Positions 16,157 through 63,385 of a DNA stretch of 64,000 nt are shown piece by piece. Within the stretch, counting starts at the first letter, position 1. Each line of letters starts with the position of its first letter. The DNA comes from Auricularia sp. M13 (taxonomy: Eukaryota > Basidiomycota > Agaricomycetes > Auriculariales > Auriculariaceae), in the NCBI GenBank assembly GCA_037042915.1, contig CM073201.1, forward strand, positions 2,480,001-2,544,000, written 5' to 3'. The notes under the pieces were generated by a model. That model saw only the letters and a program-made list of their open reading frames with translations. It was not told where the DNA came from and made no database searches. Made by a program: the position numbers and the translations under genes.

Positions 16157-17376
16157 CTATTCGTACTCGAAACACATATCACCGAATCCAACGGCCATCA
16201 GCTCACGCACTGGGCGCGCGTTTCCTAGCGGGCCCCAGTTAATAAGAGTGTCAAATGTCACGTTGGGGCTCGGCGGAATGTTGTTCGTGGTGACAGTTCC
16301 GGAGAGAGCGTTGTCCCCAGAGACCCGCGCGGGATCCACGCTCTGCCACTGAGACCACACCCTGTCAATCATCGCGTGATGCAGGAAGAACGTTGGTTCC
16401 GTCGGGCTGGAGAATATCTCGCCACCGACGGGTCCCGTGGCAAAATGGCCCGAGGCGTGCAGCCCAGGCAGTCCCACGCCGGAGACGTTGTCCAGCACGT
16501 CCTGGAAGCCCTTGATCGTCGTCTGGCTAAGCAAGTTGTCGAGATTTTGCTGCGTCTGGAAGTTCGTGGCGACGTATTGGTTGAGGTCGCGCGTGAAGCA
16601 GCGTGAAATGTAGGCGAAGACGGTCGGCGGTAGACCCGGGTTGGGGTCGGTTAACGCGCTGCCATCGACAGGAAGGTAGCCAATCCTATTTCAAAAGTAA
16701 GGCCGCTCGATGAAACCATAGGAATAAGGCGAGTGACGCTTACCGATAATTCTTGAAGGGGCCATCTGTGACGCAACCTCCCCCAGGTCCGTTGGGACAG
16801 GTTACATTGACAAATGGTTCGAAGCAGTCCGGCTCAAGTTCCTTCTCCTCAGGCGTCAGCGGGAGCCCCTGGCCCGAGAATGAGAACGCCGATCCATCGA
16901 ACAACGGAGAGGCGGTGAGATTCTCGTGGTGCTTGATCCAGTCCCAGTACGGGAGCGCGCCGGCATAGCCGCACTCAGTCTGAAGTGTGCTCTCGAATAT
17001 CTTGATGAATCCGCGGTGCCAGGCGAGGAAGACGCCGTTGAAGTGAATGAGTCTAGTCTGGTTCATGTGTACTGCGACGAAGTCTTCGTAGCGCGAGGTG
17101 GTGTTGTAAAGAGCGTGGCTGAGCTGAGACGGCCTGCTCTGAAGACAGAGGACCGCATCCGTGTAGGCCTTGCGCTCCGATGGTCGCAAATTCCCCCTGG
17201 TAAATAGTAAGACTCACAAGAGCGAGCCTAAGGAACGGTAAAGACACTGACCATTCCCGGCGAGTAACGATTTGATCAGGGTCGCACGCTCCGCCAGTCG
17301 CGGCGCCGGCCGCTGCATGGGCAAGCATGGGCGAAGACAACAAGAAGGGGAGGATGAAGTAGAGAAATTGCATCAT
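16157..17376 (-). CDS. Secreted tyrosinase 1 (short fungal type)
   Basis: Exons in transcript order: 17252-17376, 16744-17196 and 16157-16685, giving 368 aa. Residues 1-20 form a signal peptide (MMQFLYFILPFLLSSPMLAH). The CuA region has VHMNQTRLIH and LAWHRGF, and the CuB region has LHASGHFATG and FFLHHAMIDRVW, so all six copper-ligand histidines appear present. Tyrosinases oxidise monophenols and o-diphenols to quinones (melanin formation, phenolic detoxification). The protein is a catalytic core without the long C-terminal lid domain of the mushroom PPO type, like other short secreted tyrosinases. A TATAAAA lies 55 bp upstream of the ATG. It shares intron positions with tyrosinase 2 at 33.8 kb (after the RxEW/RKDW tryptophan and after GPFKNY). 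Confidence 0.93.
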
Positions 17377-18866: not shown

Positions 18867-19171
18867 AAGGTATCAGTGACAGCTGAGCTGTAAATGGCCG
18901 ACTACGTGGACAACGTGCTCAAACCGCTGGCCAACGTCAAGTCCAAGGCACCCCCCGGCAAACTGCTCGAAATAATCTTCCAGAACGAAAGTGTCAAGAA
19001 CGCGCACCAGGCCTTTCTTCAATCTCTCGATTCCAACAAAATCCAGAAAGCATCGCACGGCCTTGCAGTCCAACTCCTCAACTGCATCAGCGCAGCGTAT
19101 TACGAGAATGTCCTCCCAGCAGGCGACGCCGTCATTTTTACCAGGCATTCGAAACCGCCGACTGGGGACTA

Positions 19172-19656
19172 CTGTAGAGCTATTAATTATTACCGTGTCA
19201 CGCGTCACGGACGTCGCGCGGCGCGGTAATGGAGACGTTTTGTAGTATGTCACGCGAGGCTCATGGTAATAGCGTGTCACGGTGCTCAAGCACATGAAAT
19301 ACCCATTATGAATGCCCGGAGCTTCGCGCCTTCGGCGCGCATTACATATGTACACACATGAAGGGCGGTGTGCAACATGCGCAGGTGTAGAAGTGCCATC
19401 TAGCGCCTACCGAGTCGAGTTAGAGCAGAATGCAGGATTCTGCAGCCAGTGGACAGCGACAAAGGATGTTGGTATGTTTGCTTCCGAGCTCCGTCGTACT
19501 TGCTCAAGAGAGCTGCACTCGCTCTTTTGCATCCCAGCAATAAATTCCCTCGAAAATTTGGCCTTAAGGTCTTGGTCACATGTCACGTGGGTGCTGCGGT
19601 AATGTTTCCGACATGTCACGGTCGAAGCTTGGCGGTAATAATTCATAGCTCTACAG
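19172..19656. mobile_element. 485-bp TA-flanked inverted-repeat element (MITE) in the FunK1 gene
   Basis: The left end starts CTGTAGAGCTATTAATTATT; the right end is its inverse with one mismatch in the first 20 bases. The target dinucleotide TA is present on both sides (19170-19171 and 19657-19658). Host sequence without the element reads GGAC-TA-CCTCG, which continues the kinase frame (G-D-Y-L-A). TGTCACG-type motifs recur inside near both ends. There is no transposase ORF. TA duplication is typical of Tc1/mariner-type elements; assignment to that superfamily is inference. Confidence 0.88.
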
Positions 19657-20814
19657 TACCTCGCGCTGAACGTCAAGCCCGAGATCTGCGGCTTCCTAGG
19701 ACCACTCGTCACTCTGCTCCTTGCGCGCCAGCACCCGAATTACAAATTGCATCAGGCTTGGTCCACGCTGGTACAAGTCGCGGAGCTCGAGCGCGTCAAA
19801 GGTGATCAGCTCAGCTGGGGCCAGCTGAAAACCTACGTCGCGGGCCTCAAGCGCTACAGGCCCGACATGACTACCGTGCACGGCATCCGTCTCGCCAATG
19901 GCAAGGTCCGATTGTCTACCCTCAGCGCCCCTGGTATACTCTGGTCCGAACCAACCGCTTGGACCGAACTCTCTCCCTGGATCGCGCACGTCGTGGAAGT
20001 ATACAACTCGCTTACTGGACGGGATCTCGACATGCAATATTGCGCCGCACAGGACGGTTTTCCTCGATGGGACGTCCGCAAATCGGGAGTCGGCCTTGTG
20101 GTAACGCCATTCCAGGTTGGGCCCACTCCGGGGCGAACGACTTTTGCTTGCTTCGAGGTTGGACGCCTTCCGGTGGACGAGCCTGGGATCGACCCTCAGC
20201 TTTTGAGCGAGTTGAACGAGAGATTTGATTCGGGCGTCGTCGAAGGATTTTGGAAATTCTCCTGGCAGCGGGCGGATTCGAAAACCACAGAAGCCGAGCT
20301 ACTTACCTACCTCCACAGGAACGGCTGGGTACCTGGATTGGTGAGGCATTATCCAGAGACTACTGTCCGCGGCGAGGTCGCTTCTGCTATTAGTCACCCC
20401 TCGGGCAAAGGACATGGGTATGTCAGGGACATTCTCCACCTCGGCAGTATCGGGCAGCCACTCAGTCAATGCGAGACCGCGGGAGACTTGCTCGATGTCA
20501 TGTACGATTTGATCGAAAGTATGTAGAGCTCAATTATTGTTGTTTTTGCGCAACCATGCTGAACATTGTGTAGCGCACGCTCATCTCTGCGAACTGGGGG
20601 TTCTCCATCGCGATGTCAGCTATTACAACGTTATGTGCAAGCCCCTGCACTACATCTCGACCCATCCGGTTCTGAAGCACAACCGCGTCCTGGAGCGGCC
20701 TTGCATCAAGAAGATTTTGTACGCCACCCATCTTCCTCGCTAAAGCCTATTTTTTCTTATATTCTCTGCAGCGGCGACGAAAGCGGGCAGTCTTGCGTGC
20801 TCTTGACTGACCTT

Positions 20815-23046
20815 CATCAGGAAAACGCGCCGGTGCTGTGGAGACTCCGGGAGTCTCCACGGGCTGTGGAGTGATCGGAGCTCGCTAAGGAATTGGTCGT
20901 CTCTGGCTCCTTCGGGAGTCAGCAAAGTGTCCGGAGCTCCAGAAGCTGTGGTCACTCCAGATGCTGAGGGGACTCCATTTGCACCTCTTGTATTTATTAT
21001 TTTATTCTTGCTTGCAGTCAAAGATGGACAAAATAATAAAGAAACGAGATATATTGGCGACTACGGTAAAACAGCAAGATACAACGGTATATGTATGTAC
21101 AACGCACGACCCGTCCACGACCTCCTCGACCCGCGCAAATCTCCTTAATCACGCCTCGCGCGACGGTGCTTACAATTTTGCTGGAGAGATGTCAATGTGA
21201 ATTCTCTAGGAATAACATATTCCGCACCTGCCACGAGCCGTAATGGATCAATGCGCGCTGACTGGCTCGGCCACTTTGCTGGAATGATATTAGATGAGAT
21301 GACGCGGGGAACGAGATTGGCCAACACACCTGGAGATTGCATACCGGTGCCGGCCCGAGCAGCTGTGCTCTTCCAACTATCAGCCGTAGACCAGGCGCGT
21401 CTACAAGAACGTACCTACTAGTTATAGTGCAGGATAAGCTTGAGAGCAGGGCACAGCTAAGTTGTGTACCTTGTGCACGGACTGGAAGACAGGCGTAGCA
21501 GCGATACTTGCCCTGCGCCGAAGAAAACATGACTGAACAGCCCAAACGGAGCACACGCACCAGCGTGCTCGCGAGTTCCAGGACGCCGCGATGACGGTCG
21601 GGCTTTGCGCAGTGGGAAGGGAAACGCGGCAATGACGTGTGGTGACATAGGGTGCGACGGCGGCGAAGGCATGGGCACGGTGGGGCGCTACACGGCTACC
21701 GGCAGGACTGCAGGATTTCGGTGATTTGGGCGCTCACAGGAAGCGAGCAATCGCCCAAGTGTTTCCTGTGAGTGGTGCAATTGACAAGATTCCTGTAATC
21801 CGGGCTGTGCACTTCGGATCCGTTAACACCGACAGCCAAATCCACCAGGTTTCCACTATTGCCTGCGCTGGCGGCAGCACCGCTCGCATTTGGAAATTTT
21901 AACCTTCGCGCAGGCGCAAGCGTTATCGGAAATTTTATAATTATTATAAAACAGTGCGGATACAGCAGGTAGGCCAGGCAATGCTAGCTAGCAGGGAGGG
22001 TGCATTCGGGTCACGGAATCGTAGCACAGGCTCGCACGAGTGACGGGATACAAGCGTGCAAGAATGCTAGAAAATGAACGAGGAAAGTGCAGGGGCAAGC
22101 TTGTCGAACCGTGCGGCGTGGAAAGGCGAGAGGTATCAAGACCGCGGTGGCACGCAGATATTAACGGATAGCCGGGAAAAAACGTCAGGGGAGGGTGCGC
22201 ATCGAAGCGGGGGATATGTGGGAGGGAGGAGGAGGACGGGTGTGGAGACAACGGATGGGCGACGGGCTCGTCAGCCTTGACGAGGGGGAAAGACGAAAAA
22301 ACGCAAAGTCCACATCCAAACACAGCCAAATCAACCAGCGGTCGCCGAGATGGGCCGACAGTGTACCACATGCCTCGCGGAACGGTATCGCCGAGCTCAC
22401 AGGTAAGTTGTGATCGCATTACAGGAACTGCGTAATTCTGAGCCACCACAGGAAAACTGCACATTACTGTAGTTCCCGGTAATCCGATTCATCAAATCCT
22501 TGTAATCTCTGAAATCACCGAAATCCTGCAGTCCTGCCCGTAGCCGTGTAGCTGTCGAGTGCGGAACTCGAGAAAAATTTGCGGGAAAGCCGGATGGCGG
22601 ACTTCCAACTTCAGTCAGCCAGACTTTGACCAAGTCCGACGGCCCCTCTTCTGCAGTGCACTATCAAGCACTTTTGCCGCAGAAAAAACAAATACAGTTC
22701 CGATTTTTTTTCCCATTTGTCTATGAGCTGTGGCTTATAATTGCTCATAATATGACTAATGCACGATTTCTCGACGTCAATGTGTCAACCGTCGGTCATA
22801 GGAACATTGGAGCATGCAACAGAGCCGCTCTCACATGGTCTCTTAGGAGTGCAATTGTCGGTGATAATTCAATGACCTCAGACGACTCTGGGCACGAGCA
22901 GCTGCAAGGATGAATGGCATCACATCACGCCAAACACTCACTTCGATCACTCTGGTCACTCCGGGAGGCTCCCTCACCGTTTGCTTCACTCTGCTTACTC
23001 CCGGAGGCCGCAGAGCGCGGCTGACACCGAACACGTTTTCCTGATG
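20815..23046. mobile_element. 2,232-bp inverted-repeat element, TT target duplication, in the FunK1 gene
   Basis: The left end starts CATCAGGAAAACG and the right end is the inverse, with the match continuing in patches (CGGTG). TT flanks both sides (20813-20814 and 23047-23048). Subterminal regions are rich in ACTCCGGGAG-like blocks in both orientations. No transposase-like ORF is visible, so it looks non-autonomous. A second element (21688-22551) is nested inside. Removing it joins CTCTTGACTGACCTT to GACCATGCG, giving LLTDLDHA in frame. The ends resemble the 198-bp element at 35.4 kb. Confidence 0.85.
21688..22551. mobile_element. Nested inverted-repeat element of about 864 bp
   Basis: Terminal inverted repeats of about 40 bp start CTACACGGCTACCGGCAGGA on the left; the right end is the inverse with one mismatch in the first 20 bases (CTACACGGCTACGGGCAGGA). 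The second half of the repeat includes CTGCAGGATTTCGGTGATTT on both sides. The ends are symmetric around TA, so the target duplication could be TA, but this is ambiguous. It is non-coding and sits wholly inside the 2.2-kb element. Confidence 0.75.
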
Positions 23047-24482
23047 TTGACCATGCGACGACATTCACCAAGCTCGCAAAGGAGCCAATCGATGCATCCA
23101 AATTCGTTGTAGTAAGCCCGCCTCATTTCCTTTCGTTCGGCATAATGCTGACTTGCGCCTACAAGGGTACACAAATGTTCATGTCGACACACCTGTCAGA
23201 CCCAAAGCTGAAGAGGCGCTACGACTGGGTGAATCTGGGCAGCCTGCTCAAATTTCTGCAAGCAGCAGAAACCGACGAACCCGACCTTTTTCGACGCGCC
23301 TTTCCCGACGGCGACAACGACTTTATGTCGAAGTTCAACCTGGTCGCTGAGGCCGAGCGTCTTCGGCATGCGCTACCCCCGGAGGATCCGCCACGTTATT
23401 TGGTCGCCCCGCCCACACATCACGATTGGTGGCACGATGCCGAGTCCATCTACTGGGTTTTTCTCTACGCATTTGGGCGCGCCCGTCCGCTTGGTCCACC
23501 TATCCCAGAAGGCGGCCTCTGGGATCTCTGCCGGGCAATGTTCGCCTCCTCGGCCAGTGGCGGCGCCCGTGAGAAATGGCTCTTCCCCTACAACCAGACC
23601 GACCTGCTTAGTGGGCCCCTCAAAGAGCTAGGGTTGTTATTCGAAAAGATGGCAGCGTACCTCTCGGTCCCCTGGCACCTGTATTGCGGCGAGGGCGGCA
23701 TCATGGCCGGGAATCGGGACCACGTTCACGTTGCGTTCAGGCGGTTGATCCTCTCGTTCAAGCGCACACCGGAGAACGCGGAAACCCTACGCGTCTGCTT
23801 CGACACGGCGGCGCCGAGGGAGACCACCGCGTTCGAGCCGTTGTTCCCTACGTATAGGAGGCCCGGGGCAGACTCGGATGACGACGCCAACGCACCGCCT
23901 GCGTGCCTGGTATCGTCGACCCAGGAAGCGCGGTTTACCACGGCGCAGAAGCGCCTGGCGGAGGAACAGGCACTCGCTATTCTGCGCGGCTCCTTCCACA
24001 CGCCGCCAATGTCAGAAGGAGCGACCACCGCGGTCGACATCGATGCTCAGGAATCTGCCAGCCATGCCGATTACTGCGCCAATACGGGTGCGCCGACCGT
24101 CGTTGACCAGCCCCAGGTGTCCATCGCGCGGAAGCGCAAGGCAGCCTCCAGCGAGGATGCCACTGCCATCGACAGCGACCGCAGCGCTCGCGTCCTCAAG
24201 AGGCCCAAAACATCGCATGCAAAATCTCGCGCCAGCGGCGACGACGCGCTGCAGCCTCAACTCCATGCGTCGCAAGAATGCACCCCGACCGTTACGGGAG
24301 CGTGCGATGTCGCTCATCAGCCTGAAGGCAGCAAAGTCGCCGGGCTCGGCGAGCCCAAGAACAACGCCGAAGAAAAATACGACGCAAGCTTGCACCTCCA
24401 TTCGCGGTCTGCCAAGGCGCTGCGTCTCATGGTTTTGAAAGATCGGGCGCTGTGGTTTGGTTCTGGGAAGGTGAAGAAATAG

Positions 24483-26614: not shown

Positions 26615-27091
26615 ATGCATAACGAGGCGCGCACACACATGCCACATGACTGTATACATACAACAACTTGGACCTCTTGTTGGACACCGAGCGACCGAGG
26701 ATTATCGATCGATTCGCCGAGACCGAGGACAAAAAGAGAGCGGAACTTGGCTAACCCGTCCGGCTCGCGTGCCTCCGCAACTCCTGCCTCTGGCAAGTCC
26801 GGTCGTCTTCGGTCGAGCGCCAACAACCCGTCGAACAAGCGGAAGACGCTGTTTAGCGGGAGCGAGAGCGGCCCACCCGGCAAGAAGCGCACTGGAGACA
26901 AGCAAAAGCCGCACATGCCCGACACCCCAGCGGCTGGGTCTTTGAAGGACGACCCGAGCGCTCACAGCCTCGTGCAGTCTGCGAAGAGATACCAACACGA
27001 CTTGCACGCGCGCGCGCGCTCCGCATATGCGCTTCGCCTCAAGGTATGGAAAGATCGCACGTTATGGTTTTGCGAAGGCGTCTCAGACTAG
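26615..27091 (+). pseudogene. FunK1 C-terminal tail remnant
   Basis: An open frame ends in ARSAYALRLKVWKDRTLWF, close to SRSAKALRLMVLKDRALWF at the end of the split FunK1 gene at 24.4 kb. Before it lies a low-complexity stretch with basic clusters (NKRKTLF, GKKRTG) as in the FunK1 tail. No kinase lobes are seen upstream, so this looks like a truncated duplicate of the tail. It might alternatively be a short gene that has taken up this terminal motif. The true 5' limit is uncertain. Confidence 0.6.
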
Positions 27092-33801: not shown

Positions 33802-35016
33802 ATGCACAGATCAGCTCTTGCGCTCTTTTTGCTGGCCACTTTTTTCACCGCTCTCGCGGCTGCGCGCGCGACGGCCCAACATCACGACCACAAGCATCAT
33901 ATTCCTCGGCCTTGTCATCCACATTCAGTCAGAATTCGCAAGGATTGGCGAGTCTACTCCTTGTCGCTATCTTTCGTTAGCTGACACAGTGCTTGCAGGG
34001 GCGATCTCAGTCACAAAGAGCGCAAGCACTATCTTGACGCGGTCCTGTGCCTGCAACACAAGCCGTCTCAGCTCGATAACGCGTTGTACAACACAACATC
34101 GCGCTACGATGACTTCGTCGCCGTGCACATCAACCAGACGCGCTACGTGCACAGGAGCGCTCTGTTCCTTCCCTGGCACAGAGGCTTCATCTCCCTCTTC
34201 GAACGCACGCTGGCCGAGGAATGCGGCTTCAAGGGAACGCTGCCGTATTGGGACTGGGTGAAGCATTCGCACAATATCCTAGCATCCCCGCTATTCGATG
34301 GCTCGGATTACTCTTTCTCGGGTCAAGGCGCGCCCGTCCCTCAAGAGGACAAGCCCGCGTGTGGCGGCGGGTTCTTCACCTGTCCGCCTACCCCAGGCGG
34401 CGGCTGCGTTACAAGCGGCCCGTTCAAGAATTACACGTATGCGAATCCTCTTTTCACAGGCGCTAGACCACCAGTCACTGATCACCCTCCCGAACGATAT
34501 AGATTCGGATACCAGGCGATCCCAGACAGCGCCTGGCTTGTGCCCGAACCCGGCCTGCCTGCCGACGTCTTCGCCTATAACCCCCACTGTTTCACGCGCG
34601 ACATCAGCCAATATATCGCAACGCATTATCAGACGGCAGCTCAGGTTCACCACCTCCTGTCGACGAAGAACATTACCGACTTCCGCAACTACATGGACGA
34701 ATCTGGGTTGCACGCAGCCGGCCATCTCGTCACCGGCCCGCTCAACGGCGACCCGTTCTCCAGCCCGCAAGAGCCTACTTTCTACCTCCATCATGCAATG
34801 GTAGACAAGATGTGGGCCACGTGGCAGTCGAAGGATTTCTGGGATAGGACCTACGGCGAGAACGCGTTCTCGGGGACGCTCACCGCGTTTAATATCCCTC
34901 CCAGCTCTAATGCGTCCCTGGAGACGATGATGAACTGGGGCCCCCTTGGATGCGAGCTTAGTATGCGTGACATTCTGGCGATTGGACGTGGCGAATTTTG
35001 TTACAGATATGACTAG
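33802..35016 (+). CDS. Secreted tyrosinase 2 (short fungal type)
   Basis: Exons 33802-33947, 33999-34436 and 34503-35016 give 365 aa. Signal peptide MHRSALALFLLATFFTALAA is followed by a His-rich run (QHHDHKHHIP) not seen in tyrosinase 1. CuA: VHINQTRYVH and LPWHRGF. CuB: LHAAGHLVTG and FYLHHAMVDKMW. It is a catalytic copper oxidase core without a C-terminal lid. Intron 1 appears to use a GC donor (TG/GCGAGT); only this cut gives phase and the Trp-Gly junction of the paralogue. Intron 2 (66 nt, no stop, multiple of three) could be overlooked as coding, but its position equals the tyrosinase 1 intron after GPFKNY and its ends fit. It is followed on the same strand by an F-box-like gene, mirroring the tyrosinase 1 locus. 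Confidence 0.92.
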
Positions 35017-37334: not shown

Positions 37335-38105
37335 CTACGTATCAGCTGGCGCAGTTTTCAGATACCTCTCGATCAACTCTCGAACGGCTGCGTCGTCCAC
37401 TTCGTCGAGGTCCGGCTGTAGTCCATTCGAGATATCATAATCGAGGTACTTGTGCTTCTTCGGGTCAAACGGCGCCCTGCCCTGCCAAATATGCCAGATG
37501 GAAACACCGAGTGCATACAAATCGTCCTCCTTGCACAACGGGAGGTCGTAATTCCGACACCTCCAGGGACTCTGGTACGCCGTCGTCCCTTCGCGCGGTG
37601 CCACCGCCTCGCTCTTCATCTGCGCGGCCGCCCAGTCGCACAAAACCAGTTGCCCGTCCGAATTCCGCAGCACGTTGTCGGGTTTGATGTCGCCGTGGAG
37701 AATGCCTTTCGCATGCACACGATGCACAAGCGCCTGCAGCTGTTGAATCCACTGCATCTTGGTGCTCGTGGAGGCGGAGGCGAGCTCGGCCTCGAGAGGC
37801 TGCTCGTACGGCATGACGAATCCCTCGATCGTGCCTTCTCGAATGAACCGTCCTATGAGCCTCACGGACACGTCCTCGCCAGCCAACAGCATCATGCGCA
37901 TCTCATATATCGCCTTGGGAGTGACGTCCGCTCCGGTGAGGCTGTAGAAGGACTTCACGACGAGCTCGTCGTGCGGGGTGGCGTGAACGAAGGAATGTCC
38001 AGACGCGTGGAGACTCCGACCTTGCGAAGGGTCGTAGTAATCGAGGTCGTTGGGCCATGCTCCCAACGGAGCTGTAATGCGCGCGTTGATATCGTCTGGC
38101 GACAT
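37335..38105 (-). CDS. Small protein-kinase-like protein (copy 1)
   Basis: 256 aa, single exon. Kinase landmarks: VVKSFYSL with the probable ATP-binding Lys, an acidic helix region (AIYEMRMMLLAGEDVSV), ILHGDIKPDNVL in place of the usual HRD loop, VLCDWAAA in place of DFG, EGTTAYQSPWR as the activation segment, and DDLYALGVSIWHIWQGRAPF of the F-helix. The catalytic Asp, Lys and Asn are kept, so activity is possible in spite of the HGD and DW changes. There is no glycine-rich loop I can recognise, and the N-lobe is short. A close paralogue is at 62.6 kb. Its start is only 98 bp from the 2.67-kb transposon at 38204, so the promoter may have been displaced. Confidence 0.85.
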   Translation of the reverse strand: MSPDDINARITAPLGAWPNDLDYYDPSQGRSLHASGHSFVHATPHDELVVKSFYSLTGADVTPKAIYEMRMMLLAGEDVSVRLIGRFIREGTIEGFVMPYEQPLEAELASASTSTKMQWIQQLQALVHRVHAKGILHGDIKPDNVLRNSDGQLVLCDWAAAQMKSEAVAPREGTTAYQSPWRCRNYDLPLCKEDDLYALGVSIWHIWQGRAPFDPKKHKYLDYDISNGLQPDLDEVDDAAVRELIERYLKTAPADT

Positions 38106-38203
38106 TTGACGAGTGAAGAGGAAGATGGAAACGTCGCGAAAACAAGCGTAACCAAACCTTCGGTGAGCGGACTCTGAACACATACACCTAGACGTCTGGC
38201 AAA

Positions 38204-38560
38204 CACCCGAGCGGTATACCAAACAAGCCTAGTTAGGCCTGTATCACCGGGGGGTGATGCAAGCCTAACTAGGCTCAGTAGGCCTTCATACGCACACACG
38301 CGTATAATACCTCCAATATCTCCAGAAAGTGCGCCCCGAGCAAAGGAGTTCAGAGTGCAGGGGACACTGGGCGTCACCGGAACGGCCGCCCGGCCGCATC
38401 AACGCCGGCGATCAGTCGGCGCCATCGCCCGCCGCCTGCCAAACATGCCCGGCATCGTCAGCGGTGGCGACGACGACGAGCCCGACCGTCGCTTCCGCTG
38501 CAAATGTATATAGGCAACCCTTATATCGATCGGCTCCGATTTTCAAGCTCTGTTCAATGG
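38204..38560 (+). repeat. Left terminal inverted repeat, 357 bp
   Basis: Begins CACCCGAGCGGTATACC and ends at TCTGTTCAATGG. It matches the reverse complement of 40516-40872 at nearly every base. Differences are seen near 38219 (C/T), near 38465 (T/C) and near 38546 (A/G). Sequence identity stops sharply at 38560. Confidence 0.9.
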
Positions 38561-60060: not shown

Positions 60061-60191
60061 TTGCACATCGGCGCGCGCCGTGTATAGTATGGGGACGCTG
60101 TTTGGGGCACCGTTGACTCTACCCCGCGACAGTGGCGAGCGGTGCTGGAGAAATTTTTGGTCGCGGTAAACTCAGGCTGAAGACTAATCAG

Positions 60192-61228
60192 GGGAGACTT
60201 GCAGCCGCTTCAAGTCGAAGGCCTTTACTATACGGACGCGGTCGTTTTGCCTCCAGCGCAGGCCTTCCGCGTCAGCTCAGCCACGCTCTACTTTATACAA
60301 ACATCACCTCGTGCAACGACTTGGAGGACGTCGTCGCCGTGCAGATCAACCAGACCCGGCGCATCCACGTCAACGTCAACGGCGTCTTCCTCGCCTGGCA
60401 CCGCGGCTTCATACAAATATTCGAGCGCACGGCACGCTCCCGTATCGAGACTGGATCAGGCACCGCGAGAATATCACCGCCTCGCCGCTCTTTGACGGAT
60501 CGCCGTACTCGCGGTCTGGCCAGGGGCTTCCTCGCGCCCCCGAGAAGGAGCTCGAGCCGGGTTACTGGCAGCTTGGCAACTACTCTCCAAAGGGTCCTGG
60601 TGGAGGTTGCGTCGTGAATGGTCCTTTCAAGAACTATCAGTACGAAATTATATCTGCCCCTCAATGCGTTGCCGTCGCTGAACCTTATCTCGCAGTCTAG
60701 GATCGGATACTTATCCGTCGGCGGGAACGTCCTGACCGACCCCAACCCAGGTCTCCCTCCGATGGTCTGAGTCTTCGACTATGTGACGCGCTGCTCGACG
60801 CGCGACATCAGCCAGTACATCGCGACGAACTTCCAGATTCCAGAGAATCTCAACAACTTGCTTAAGCAGCCGACGATCAAGGCTTTACAGGCCACGCTCG
60901 ATGTTGAGAACGACTCTGGCGTCGGTCCGCCTGGCCTGCACCCTAGGATTCCGCGACGGACGACATCTTCTCCAGCCCCTCTGAGCCTGCATTCTGACTG
61001 CACCATTTCGACAAGGTCTGGACGCAGTGGCAGAGCGTGGATTCCGCGCGTGTTGCCAGCGATAACGTGCTCTCCAGGACGGTCACCACGAACCGGCGAT
61101 ATCCCGCCAAGCGCAGACGCAACGTTTGACACGCTTGTTGACTGACTGGGGCCCGCTGGGAGACGTGTGCCCCGGAAGCTGATGGCCGTTGGATTCGGTG
61201 CCTTGTGTGTGCCTATCTACTGTTCAAA
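60192..61228 (+). pseudogene. Decayed tyrosinase 3
   Basis: Fragments in different frames follow the tyrosinase 1 order: ALLYTNITS then VAVQINQTRRIH (first CuA His changed to Gln) and VFLAWHRGF at about 60340-60415; ITASPLFDGSPYSRSGQGLP; GPGGGCVVNGPFKNYQ at about 60597-60645; DPNPGLPP then a stop near 60768; STRDISQYIATNFQ; LHHFDKVWTQWQSVDSA at about 61000-61050; and LMAVGFGALC near 61180-61205. The LHASGH pair is lost and several frame shifts are present, so no enzyme can be made. Closer to tyrosinase 1 than to tyrosinase 2 in the LTDPNPGLPP and SVDxARV segments. Confidence 0.88.
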
Positions 61229-62599: not shown

Positions 62600-63385
62600 C
62601 TACAGATCGTCGATATTGGATACGCTAGGCACAGCTTTCAGATACCTCTCGATCAACTCTCGAACAGCTGCGTCGTCCACTTCATCGAGGTCCGGCTGTA
62701 GTCCATCCGAGATATCATAGTCGAGGTACTTATGCTTCTTCGGGTCAAACGGCGCCCTGCCCTGCCAAATATGCCAGATGGAAACGCCGAGCGCATACAG
62801 ATCGTCCTGCACGCACAGCGGGGGGTCGGTATTCCGACACCTCCAGGGGCTCTGGTACGCCGTCGTCCCCTCGCGCGGTGCCACCGCCTGGCTCTCCATC
62901 TGTGCGGCGGCCCAGTCGCAGAACACCAACTGCCCGTCCTTCGGCACGAGCACGTTGGCGGGTTTGATATCGCCGTGGAGAATGCCTTTCTCGTGCACAC
63001 GATGCACAAGCGCCTGCAGCTGTTCAATCCACTGCATCTTGGTGCTCGTGGAGGCGGAGGCGAGCTCGGCCTCGAGAGGCTGTTCGTACGGCATGACGAA
63101 TCCCTCGATCGTGCCTTCTCGGATGTACCGTCCTATGAGCCTGACGGACACGTCCTCGCCAGCCAACAGCATCATGCGCATTTCACGTATCGCTTTGGGA
63201 GTGACATCCTCTCCGGTGAGACTGTAGAAGGACTTCACGACGAATTCATCGTGCTCGATGGCGTGAACGAAGGAATGTCCAGACACGTGCAGACGTCGAC
63301 CTTCAAAGGGGTCGTAGTAATCGATGTCGTTGGGCCATGCTCCCAACGGAGCTGTAATGCGCGCGTTGATGTCGTCTGGCGACAT
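62600..63385 (-). CDS. Small protein-kinase-like protein (copy 2)
   Basis: 261 aa, single exon, close paralogue of the gene at 37.3-38.1 kb: same start MSPDDINARITAPLGAWPND, same HGDIKPANVL loop, same CDWAAAQM and EGTTAYQSPWR. Differences are scattered, and the C-terminus is five residues longer (AVPSVSNIDDL). The catalytic Asp, Lys and Asn are conserved, so it is probably a functional gene. Similarity between the two loci extends a little beyond the stop and about 60 bp upstream of the start, then ends, so the duplication was local. It neighbours the tyrosinase 3 relic as copy 1 neighbours the tyrosinase 2 block. Confidence 0.86.
   Translation of the reverse strand: MSPDDINARITAPLGAWPNDIDYYDPFEGRRLHVSGHSFVHAIEHDEFVVKSFYSLTGEDVTPKAIREMRMMLLAGEDVSVRLIGRYIREGTIEGFVMPYEQPLEAELASASTSTKMQWIEQLQALVHRVHEKGILHGDIKPANVLVPKDGQLVFCDWAAAQMESQAVAPREGTTAYQSPWRCRNTDPPLCVQDDLYALGVSIWHIWQGRAPFDPKKHKYLDYDISDGLQPDLDEVDDAAVRELIERYLKAVPSVSNIDDL

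Follow-up and report, generated by a model that had tools for sequence, protein, structure and literature searches.

A FunK1-type kinase gene of Auricularia sp. M13 interrupted, probably recently, by three non-autonomous DNA transposons

The stretch of DNA analysed here (the window: 64,000 nt with a G+C content of 57.6%, positions 2,480,001 to 2,544,000 of contig CM073201.1 in the Auricularia sp. M13 assembly GCA_037042915.1, or G000:C9:2480001-2544000; the genome comprises 52.1 Mb in 14 contigs) contains a predicted protein kinase gene that is interrupted at two sites by inserts, here termed E1 and E2, the second of which is itself split by a third, E3. When each insert with one copy of its target (19172-19658 and 20815-23048) and three introns are taken out of 18894-24482, the resulting "joined" coding sequence (CDS) is 2706 nt long and comprises 901 codons plus a stop, with zero internal stops. 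The remaining two frames of the joined sequence contain 19 and 12 stops, so the open kinase frame is not due to chance. The three introns were picked to fit the frame, and the nearest paralogue in the genome, L065, has introns at the same three places. A preliminary description of the window had proposed a FunK1 kinase hit by two transposons; its positions, both target duplications (TA and TT), the three introns and the 901 codons of open frame could all be reproduced, and no break elsewhere in the joined frame was found over its 901 codons. The features of the locus are:

18894..19171, + strand: kinase exon 1, 5' piece, with the ATG start and GDY at its end; its final two bases, TA, are the target copy
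19170..19171: left target-site duplication of E1, TA
19172..19656: E1, a 485-bp non-autonomous DNA transposon resembling a miniature inverted-repeat transposable element (MITE), with inverted ends CTGTAGAGCTAT... and TA duplication
19657..19658: right target-site duplication of E1, TA
19659..20518, + strand: kinase exon 1, 3' piece
20519..20573, + strand: intron A, 55 nt, GTATGT...TGTAG (L065 counterpart 49 nt)
20574..20718, + strand: kinase exon 2, containing VLHRDVSYYN, with serine where lysine is usual
20719..20771, + strand: intron B, 53 nt (L065 counterpart 49 nt)
20772..20814, + strand: kinase exon 3, 5' piece, with LLTDL at its end
20815-23046: E2 as a whole, split by E3, with the TT duplication at 20813-20814 and 23047-23048
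20815..21688: E2, left part, with the end CATCAGGAAAACG and a 2-bp duplication
21689..22550: E3, 862 bp, nested within E2, with inverted ends TACACGGCTACC... and GC/GC flanks
22551..23046: E2, right part
23049..23111, + strand: kinase exon 3, 3' piece, with DHA at its start
23112..23165, + strand: intron C, 54 nt (L065 counterpart 47 nt)
23166..24482, + strand: kinase exon 4 through the stop codon

Judged by its sequence, the interrupted gene is a FunK1-type kinase. The joined protein matches the PF17667 (Pkinase_fungal) profile over residues 354-564 with 69.6 bits (curated cut-off 24.1), and it possesses the HRDxS active-site loop (HRDVS); a serine in place of lysine in this loop is stated to be a mark of FunK1 kinases in the available portion of one report (PMC3203195). 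The window gene resembles FunK1 kinases in the profile match above the cut-off, in the HRDxS site and in the number of copies in the genome, and differs from them in being interrupted by transposons and in that its match is limited to profile positions 272-385 of 387, i.e. to the last third. A genome-wide scan with the PF17667 profile gave four matches, and the interrupted gene was not among them. The same profile also found matches in four of 14 bacterial control genomes (two of them above the cut-off) and hence is not perfectly specific. With the joined protein as query, and with 50 of 125 candidates scored, at least 81 matching pieces were found in the genome, counting that of the window itself; many of them map to the 2.29-2.50 Mb section of C9. 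Among these scored candidates the interrupted locus occurs as a single copy.

E1 shares with MITEs of the Tc1/mariner type the flanking TA, the inverted ends (arms of 26 nt including the TA, 96% complementary), the shortness, the lack of an evident gene and the existence of a longer relative, the 4.4-kb L068 (C2:311639-316053), in which both ends are present and PGGC and GVFQPADVGLQR stretches occur in the coding pieces. It differs from them in that L068 yielded no transposase family above the cut-off: none of four reading-frame pieces of L068 matched a Pfam family, and its joined middle part matched DDE_1 with an E-value of 0.17 (11.9 bits, cut-off 22). E1 is accordingly a putative Tc1/mariner element, assigned by its TA duplication. 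A genome search with E1 gave 79 matches, a figure that counts partial hits as well as the copy in the window, and 24 of the 30 loci examined carry a full-length copy of the family, again with the window copy included. The search pattern required TA at the left end and left the right side free, and a right-hand TA is present in 23 of these 24; the closest full-length copy is L006 (C8:1829243-1829731), with 96% identity. When open frames spanning the junctions of the 24 copies were set against places chosen at random within each copy's own flanks, the fraction was 0.00 for the window copy, L018 and L024, 0.07 for L029, and at least 0.19 for the remaining 20; with 20 of 24 copies at this level, we do not claim a general preference of E1 for coding exons. 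The copies in L024, at a reverse-transcriptase frame (PF00078), and in L029, in a long open frame with integrase domains (PF17921) of the long terminal repeat (LTR) type, would be transposons inside retroelements. The family also includes ends with no nearby partner: two left ends close to contig starts (L007, C13:20645, and L008, C2:34432), which are similar over the 160 nt aligned, and one end of each kind on C7, left and right, with 12 kb between them (L009, C7:3545073, and L012, C7:3557284).

E2 duplicates 2 bp of target, the sequence of which varies among copies: of eight other copies with both ends, seven have identical 2-bp flanks (TT, TT, TG, AA, CA, TT and TG) and one does not (CT/AC). 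By these constant ends and a target duplication of fixed length across copies, E2 may be classed as a cut-and-paste DNA transposon. The preliminary description had counted two insertions; there are three, because none of six E2 relatives examined has a match to E3 at the corresponding place. Three of these relatives (L037, L038 and L039) are continuous there with few bases between, and L064 is nearly so. In L051 (C3:2216497-2219919) and L055 (C1:1270551-1273962) this place is filled by unrelated sequence of 452 and 455 nt, which may represent a longer E2 variant or a separate insertion. Where it is empty, in L037, L038 and L039, it is four bases longer than the joined flanks in the window (GCCAGC versus a single GC), so that a small loss, or a difference in the source copy, accompanies E3. 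E3 itself has inverted arms of 52 nt (88%) and, like E1 and E2, related copies at other places in the genome.

The join is independently supported by the paralogues. L065 (C9:2409500-2412750, gene L065:229-3100) lies ~89 kb from the window gene and aligns across both insertion sites without an insert, and the joined motifs GDYLAL and LLTDLDHA are unbroken in all three paralogues examined (L065, L066 and L067); a lack of the joined motif in homologues, named beforehand as a finding that would count against the proposal, was thus not observed. Alignment with L001 and L004 contributed little, as these pieces span roughly residues 288-400 only. A FunK1-type gene interrupted by transposon insertions is therefore borne out by the PF17667 match, the repeat families and the empty sites of the paralogues. 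The frame of L065 is itself disturbed relative to the window: it has 1-base deletions after CDS positions 576 and 900, deletions of two bases and one base at 2348 and 2375, and a 1-base insertion at 2505, and its translation from the ATG meets stops, to which assembly error in L065 may contribute. The similarity between the two genes runs from the start codon to a point six bases short of the stop codon's end, and from ~1.1 kb on either side of the L065 gene no further match to the window was found. Downstream of the interrupted gene, 26708-27079 (+) is a possible kinase-tail remnant, which is 27.7% identical to the family's C-terminal tail in an alignment of 130 columns (E 1.8e-5) and has a similar LRLKVWKDRTLWF motif at its end; no other kinase pieces beside it matched at E-values up to 1.

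The window gene evolved under purifying selection. Counting of synonymous and non-synonymous changes against the nearest FunK1 paralogue, as proposed in the preliminary description, gave a non-synonymous divergence (dN) of 0.084 and a synonymous divergence (dS) of 0.253 between the window gene and L065, i.e. a ratio of 0.33 over 888 codons. With L066 and L067 as outgroups, changes could be assigned to either lineage (104 further changes remain unassigned): codon positions 1, 2 and 3 carry 28, 16 and 47 changes on the window lineage (third-position excess, P = 0.0003) and 16, 16 and 49 on the L065 lineage (P = 5e-7), with no difference between the two patterns (P 0.28). The excess implies that the window copy remained under constraint during much of the time since it separated from L065. 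A tract of 125 nt (CDS 193-317) is identical in the two genes and spans site 1, where E1 is inserted at CDS position 278; third positions remain unchanged for up to 51 in succession, a length reached in 44 of 10000 shuffles, which suggests past gene conversion. Since a random site would fall inside this tract with a chance of ~5%, its overlap with the insertion is weak evidence. In five other sections of the CDS the dS is 0.21-0.39, so the gene as a whole has not undergone recent conversion. Gene conversion as the general keeper of the frame was rejected, because the identical tract is found at site 1 only.

How long the frame could have stayed clean was estimated by simulating neutral decay of the joined frame under assumed ratios of indels to substitutions. 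At 0.1 indels per substitution the chance of finding no lesion was 0.24 at 0.5% divergence, 0.07 at 1% and 0.004 at 2%; at 1% it was 0.165, 0.07 and 0.005 for 0.05, 0.1 and 0.2 indels per substitution, respectively, and at 3% it was at most 0.003. The lesion-free frame corresponds to less than roughly 1-2% neutral divergence. E1 carries derived changes at five of 410 polarised sites (2/170 and 3/240, ~1.2%), with three more ambiguous; as an upper bound on the age of E1 this agrees with a young insertion. The suggestion that the gene was inactivated recently is thus supported by both the decay simulation and the scarcity of derived changes in E1.

We consider it very probable that this locus represents the fresh inactivation of a FunK1-type kinase from an expanded family by three non-autonomous cut-and-paste transposons. 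The gene would have been under selection, and presumably working, until recently, when E1 entered exon 1 and E2 the segment encoding the metal-binding motif; E3 would have inserted into E2 after its arrival, or have been already aboard when E2 moved. The enzymes for these transpositions would have been made elsewhere. E1 and E2 each duplicated two target bases, and consequently the element-free sequence recreates the old one on paper. The assembled copy would be null, as the frame meets stops within both elements and the motif is not recovered by any canonical splicing. According to this scenario the frame is clean because little time has elapsed, and not because the inserts are removed.

Several observations weigh against such a recent event. 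There is no near-identical full-length sibling of E1 or E2 in the assembly: the best E1 copy is 96% identical, and long pieces of E2 relatives are at ~77-86%, with one 134-bp piece at 96%. A recent burst of E1 and E2, one of the explanations offered earlier, is accordingly not borne out; E3 has some closer pieces, at 97-98% over 194-220 bp, besides a relative at 90% over 678 positions. Moreover, the terminal branch of the window E2 is 0.110 in the left part, where it exceeds those of all six other copies, and 0.080 in the right part, where it ranks second, with 27 of 618 and 23 of 473 columns private to it, of which 14 and 8 are C-to-T or G-to-A. If all of this branch had arisen after the insertion, there would be very little chance of finding the kinase without a lesion (at most 0.001 in the simulation at 5%). 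It is likely that the E2 branch is mostly older than the insertion, with the source copy not in the assembly and cut-and-paste movement leaving none behind.

The clean frame and the missing close siblings would be easier to understand if the insertions were polymorphic, with an intact allele in the other nucleus or in other strains. This explanation is compatible with fresh inactivation, and we regard it as quite possible, with a chance somewhat short of even: among the scored candidates the locus occurs only once in the assembly, which would thus lack any second haplotype, and monokaryons of the mushroom Marasmius oreades accumulate transposon insertions, according to the accessible part of a study that reports activity of hAT and Mariner transposons together with structural changes in them (PMC9674265). 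No second allele was seen. Both cases concern recent DNA transposon insertions in a basidiomycete; they differ in that the window has no parental or sister strain for comparison. The insertions could instead be old, with the frame kept clean by selection on the gene or its pieces or by repair through conversion from paralogues; we find this improbable. It would account for the long private branch of E2, and the tract shared with L065 around site 1, together with the confinement of similarity to coding sequence, points in the same direction; however, synonymous divergence is appreciable elsewhere in the gene, the overlap of tract and site is of little weight, and the 5' frames meet stops inside the elements. 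Still less credible is an assembly artefact in which repeats were misjoined into the kinase, as both insertions have 2-bp duplications and complete ends, the nested order agrees with the relatives, and nothing in favour of misjoining was found in the assembled sequence.

Removal of the inserts by splicing, a further suggestion in the preliminary description, found no support. At neither site is there an exact canonical intron, since none of the three registers begins with GT or GC and also ends with AG; exact removal of E1 would need an intron starting with TA, AC or CT. Of 360 GT-AG pairs around E2 (donors 20773-21099, acceptors 22700-23109), nine keep the frame and avoid stops, and none of the 360 retains both TDL and DHA, for which reason we rejected splicing of E2. 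E1 has GTAGAG near its left end and TCATAG/CTACAG near its right end, and 13 of 160 GT-AG pairs around it are in frame and stop-free, including 19174-19648, a potential 475-nt intron that would keep the frame and add four codons. Introners with both splice sites, adding 12 bp, have been described in Aureococcus, according to the accessible part of one paper (PMC9860276), and E1 is like them in that its ends happen to hold GT and AG and that inexact in-frame removal is possible on paper. It is highly unlikely that E1 is removed in this manner: splicing at its outermost sites (19174-19656), as read from the sequence, leaves four bases over and shifts the frame, the gene's own introns are only 53-55 nt long, and of eight other family copies with junction frames at hand, the three from which pieces were searched in Pfam lie beside or within F-box, reverse-transcriptase and LTR-type integrase frames, none appearing intronic. 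The window inserts differ from Introners in that canonical sites do not permit their exact removal and that E2 cannot be usefully spliced; inexact splicing of E1 would be no rescue because E2 still breaks the gene. In ciliates, TBE and Tec elements, which belong to the Tc1/mariner superfamily, are among the sequences eliminated (accessible part of PMC7325037); a comparable excision of the inserts from the DNA at some stage has the least to recommend it and is hardly to be expected. The empty sites can be written exactly and E1 carries a Tc1/mariner-type TA duplication, but the scored candidates include no empty copy of the locus, copies of the E1 family remain elsewhere with both ends, and nothing in the assembled sequence points to excision. 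We know of no programmed excision in mushrooms. The idea that the elements are removable "without a scar" thus stands in so far as it fits the supposed empty site, and fails in that no excision is seen. We also give very little credence to a composite scenario, in which the inserts predate what the clean frame implies, the E2 branch of 0.08-0.11 accrued largely in place under selection, E1 is spliced with four added codons, and E2 is absent or removed in expressing nuclei.

Elsewhere in the window, 37335-38228 (-) and 62600-63385 (-) encode two small protein kinases of another kind, ~25 kb apart and very alike by eye, of which the latter matches Pkinase (PF00069). Genes or fragments that look tyrosinase-like by eye lie at 16157-17213 (-), 33985-35016 (+) and 60117-61145 (+); the second matches PF00264, and the third looks broken in the list of frames.

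Among the papers listed on FunK1 with transposable elements, basidiomycetes and pseudogenes, none deals with insertions in FunK1 genes, judged by titles and the starts of abstracts. The locus would acquire wider significance only if RNA showed removal of the inserts; most likely its cause is ordinary, a freshly disabled gene of a known sort. As such it offers a snapshot of birth and death in an expanded kinase family, with one paralogue freshly broken by nested transposons and its nearest relative by frameshifts.

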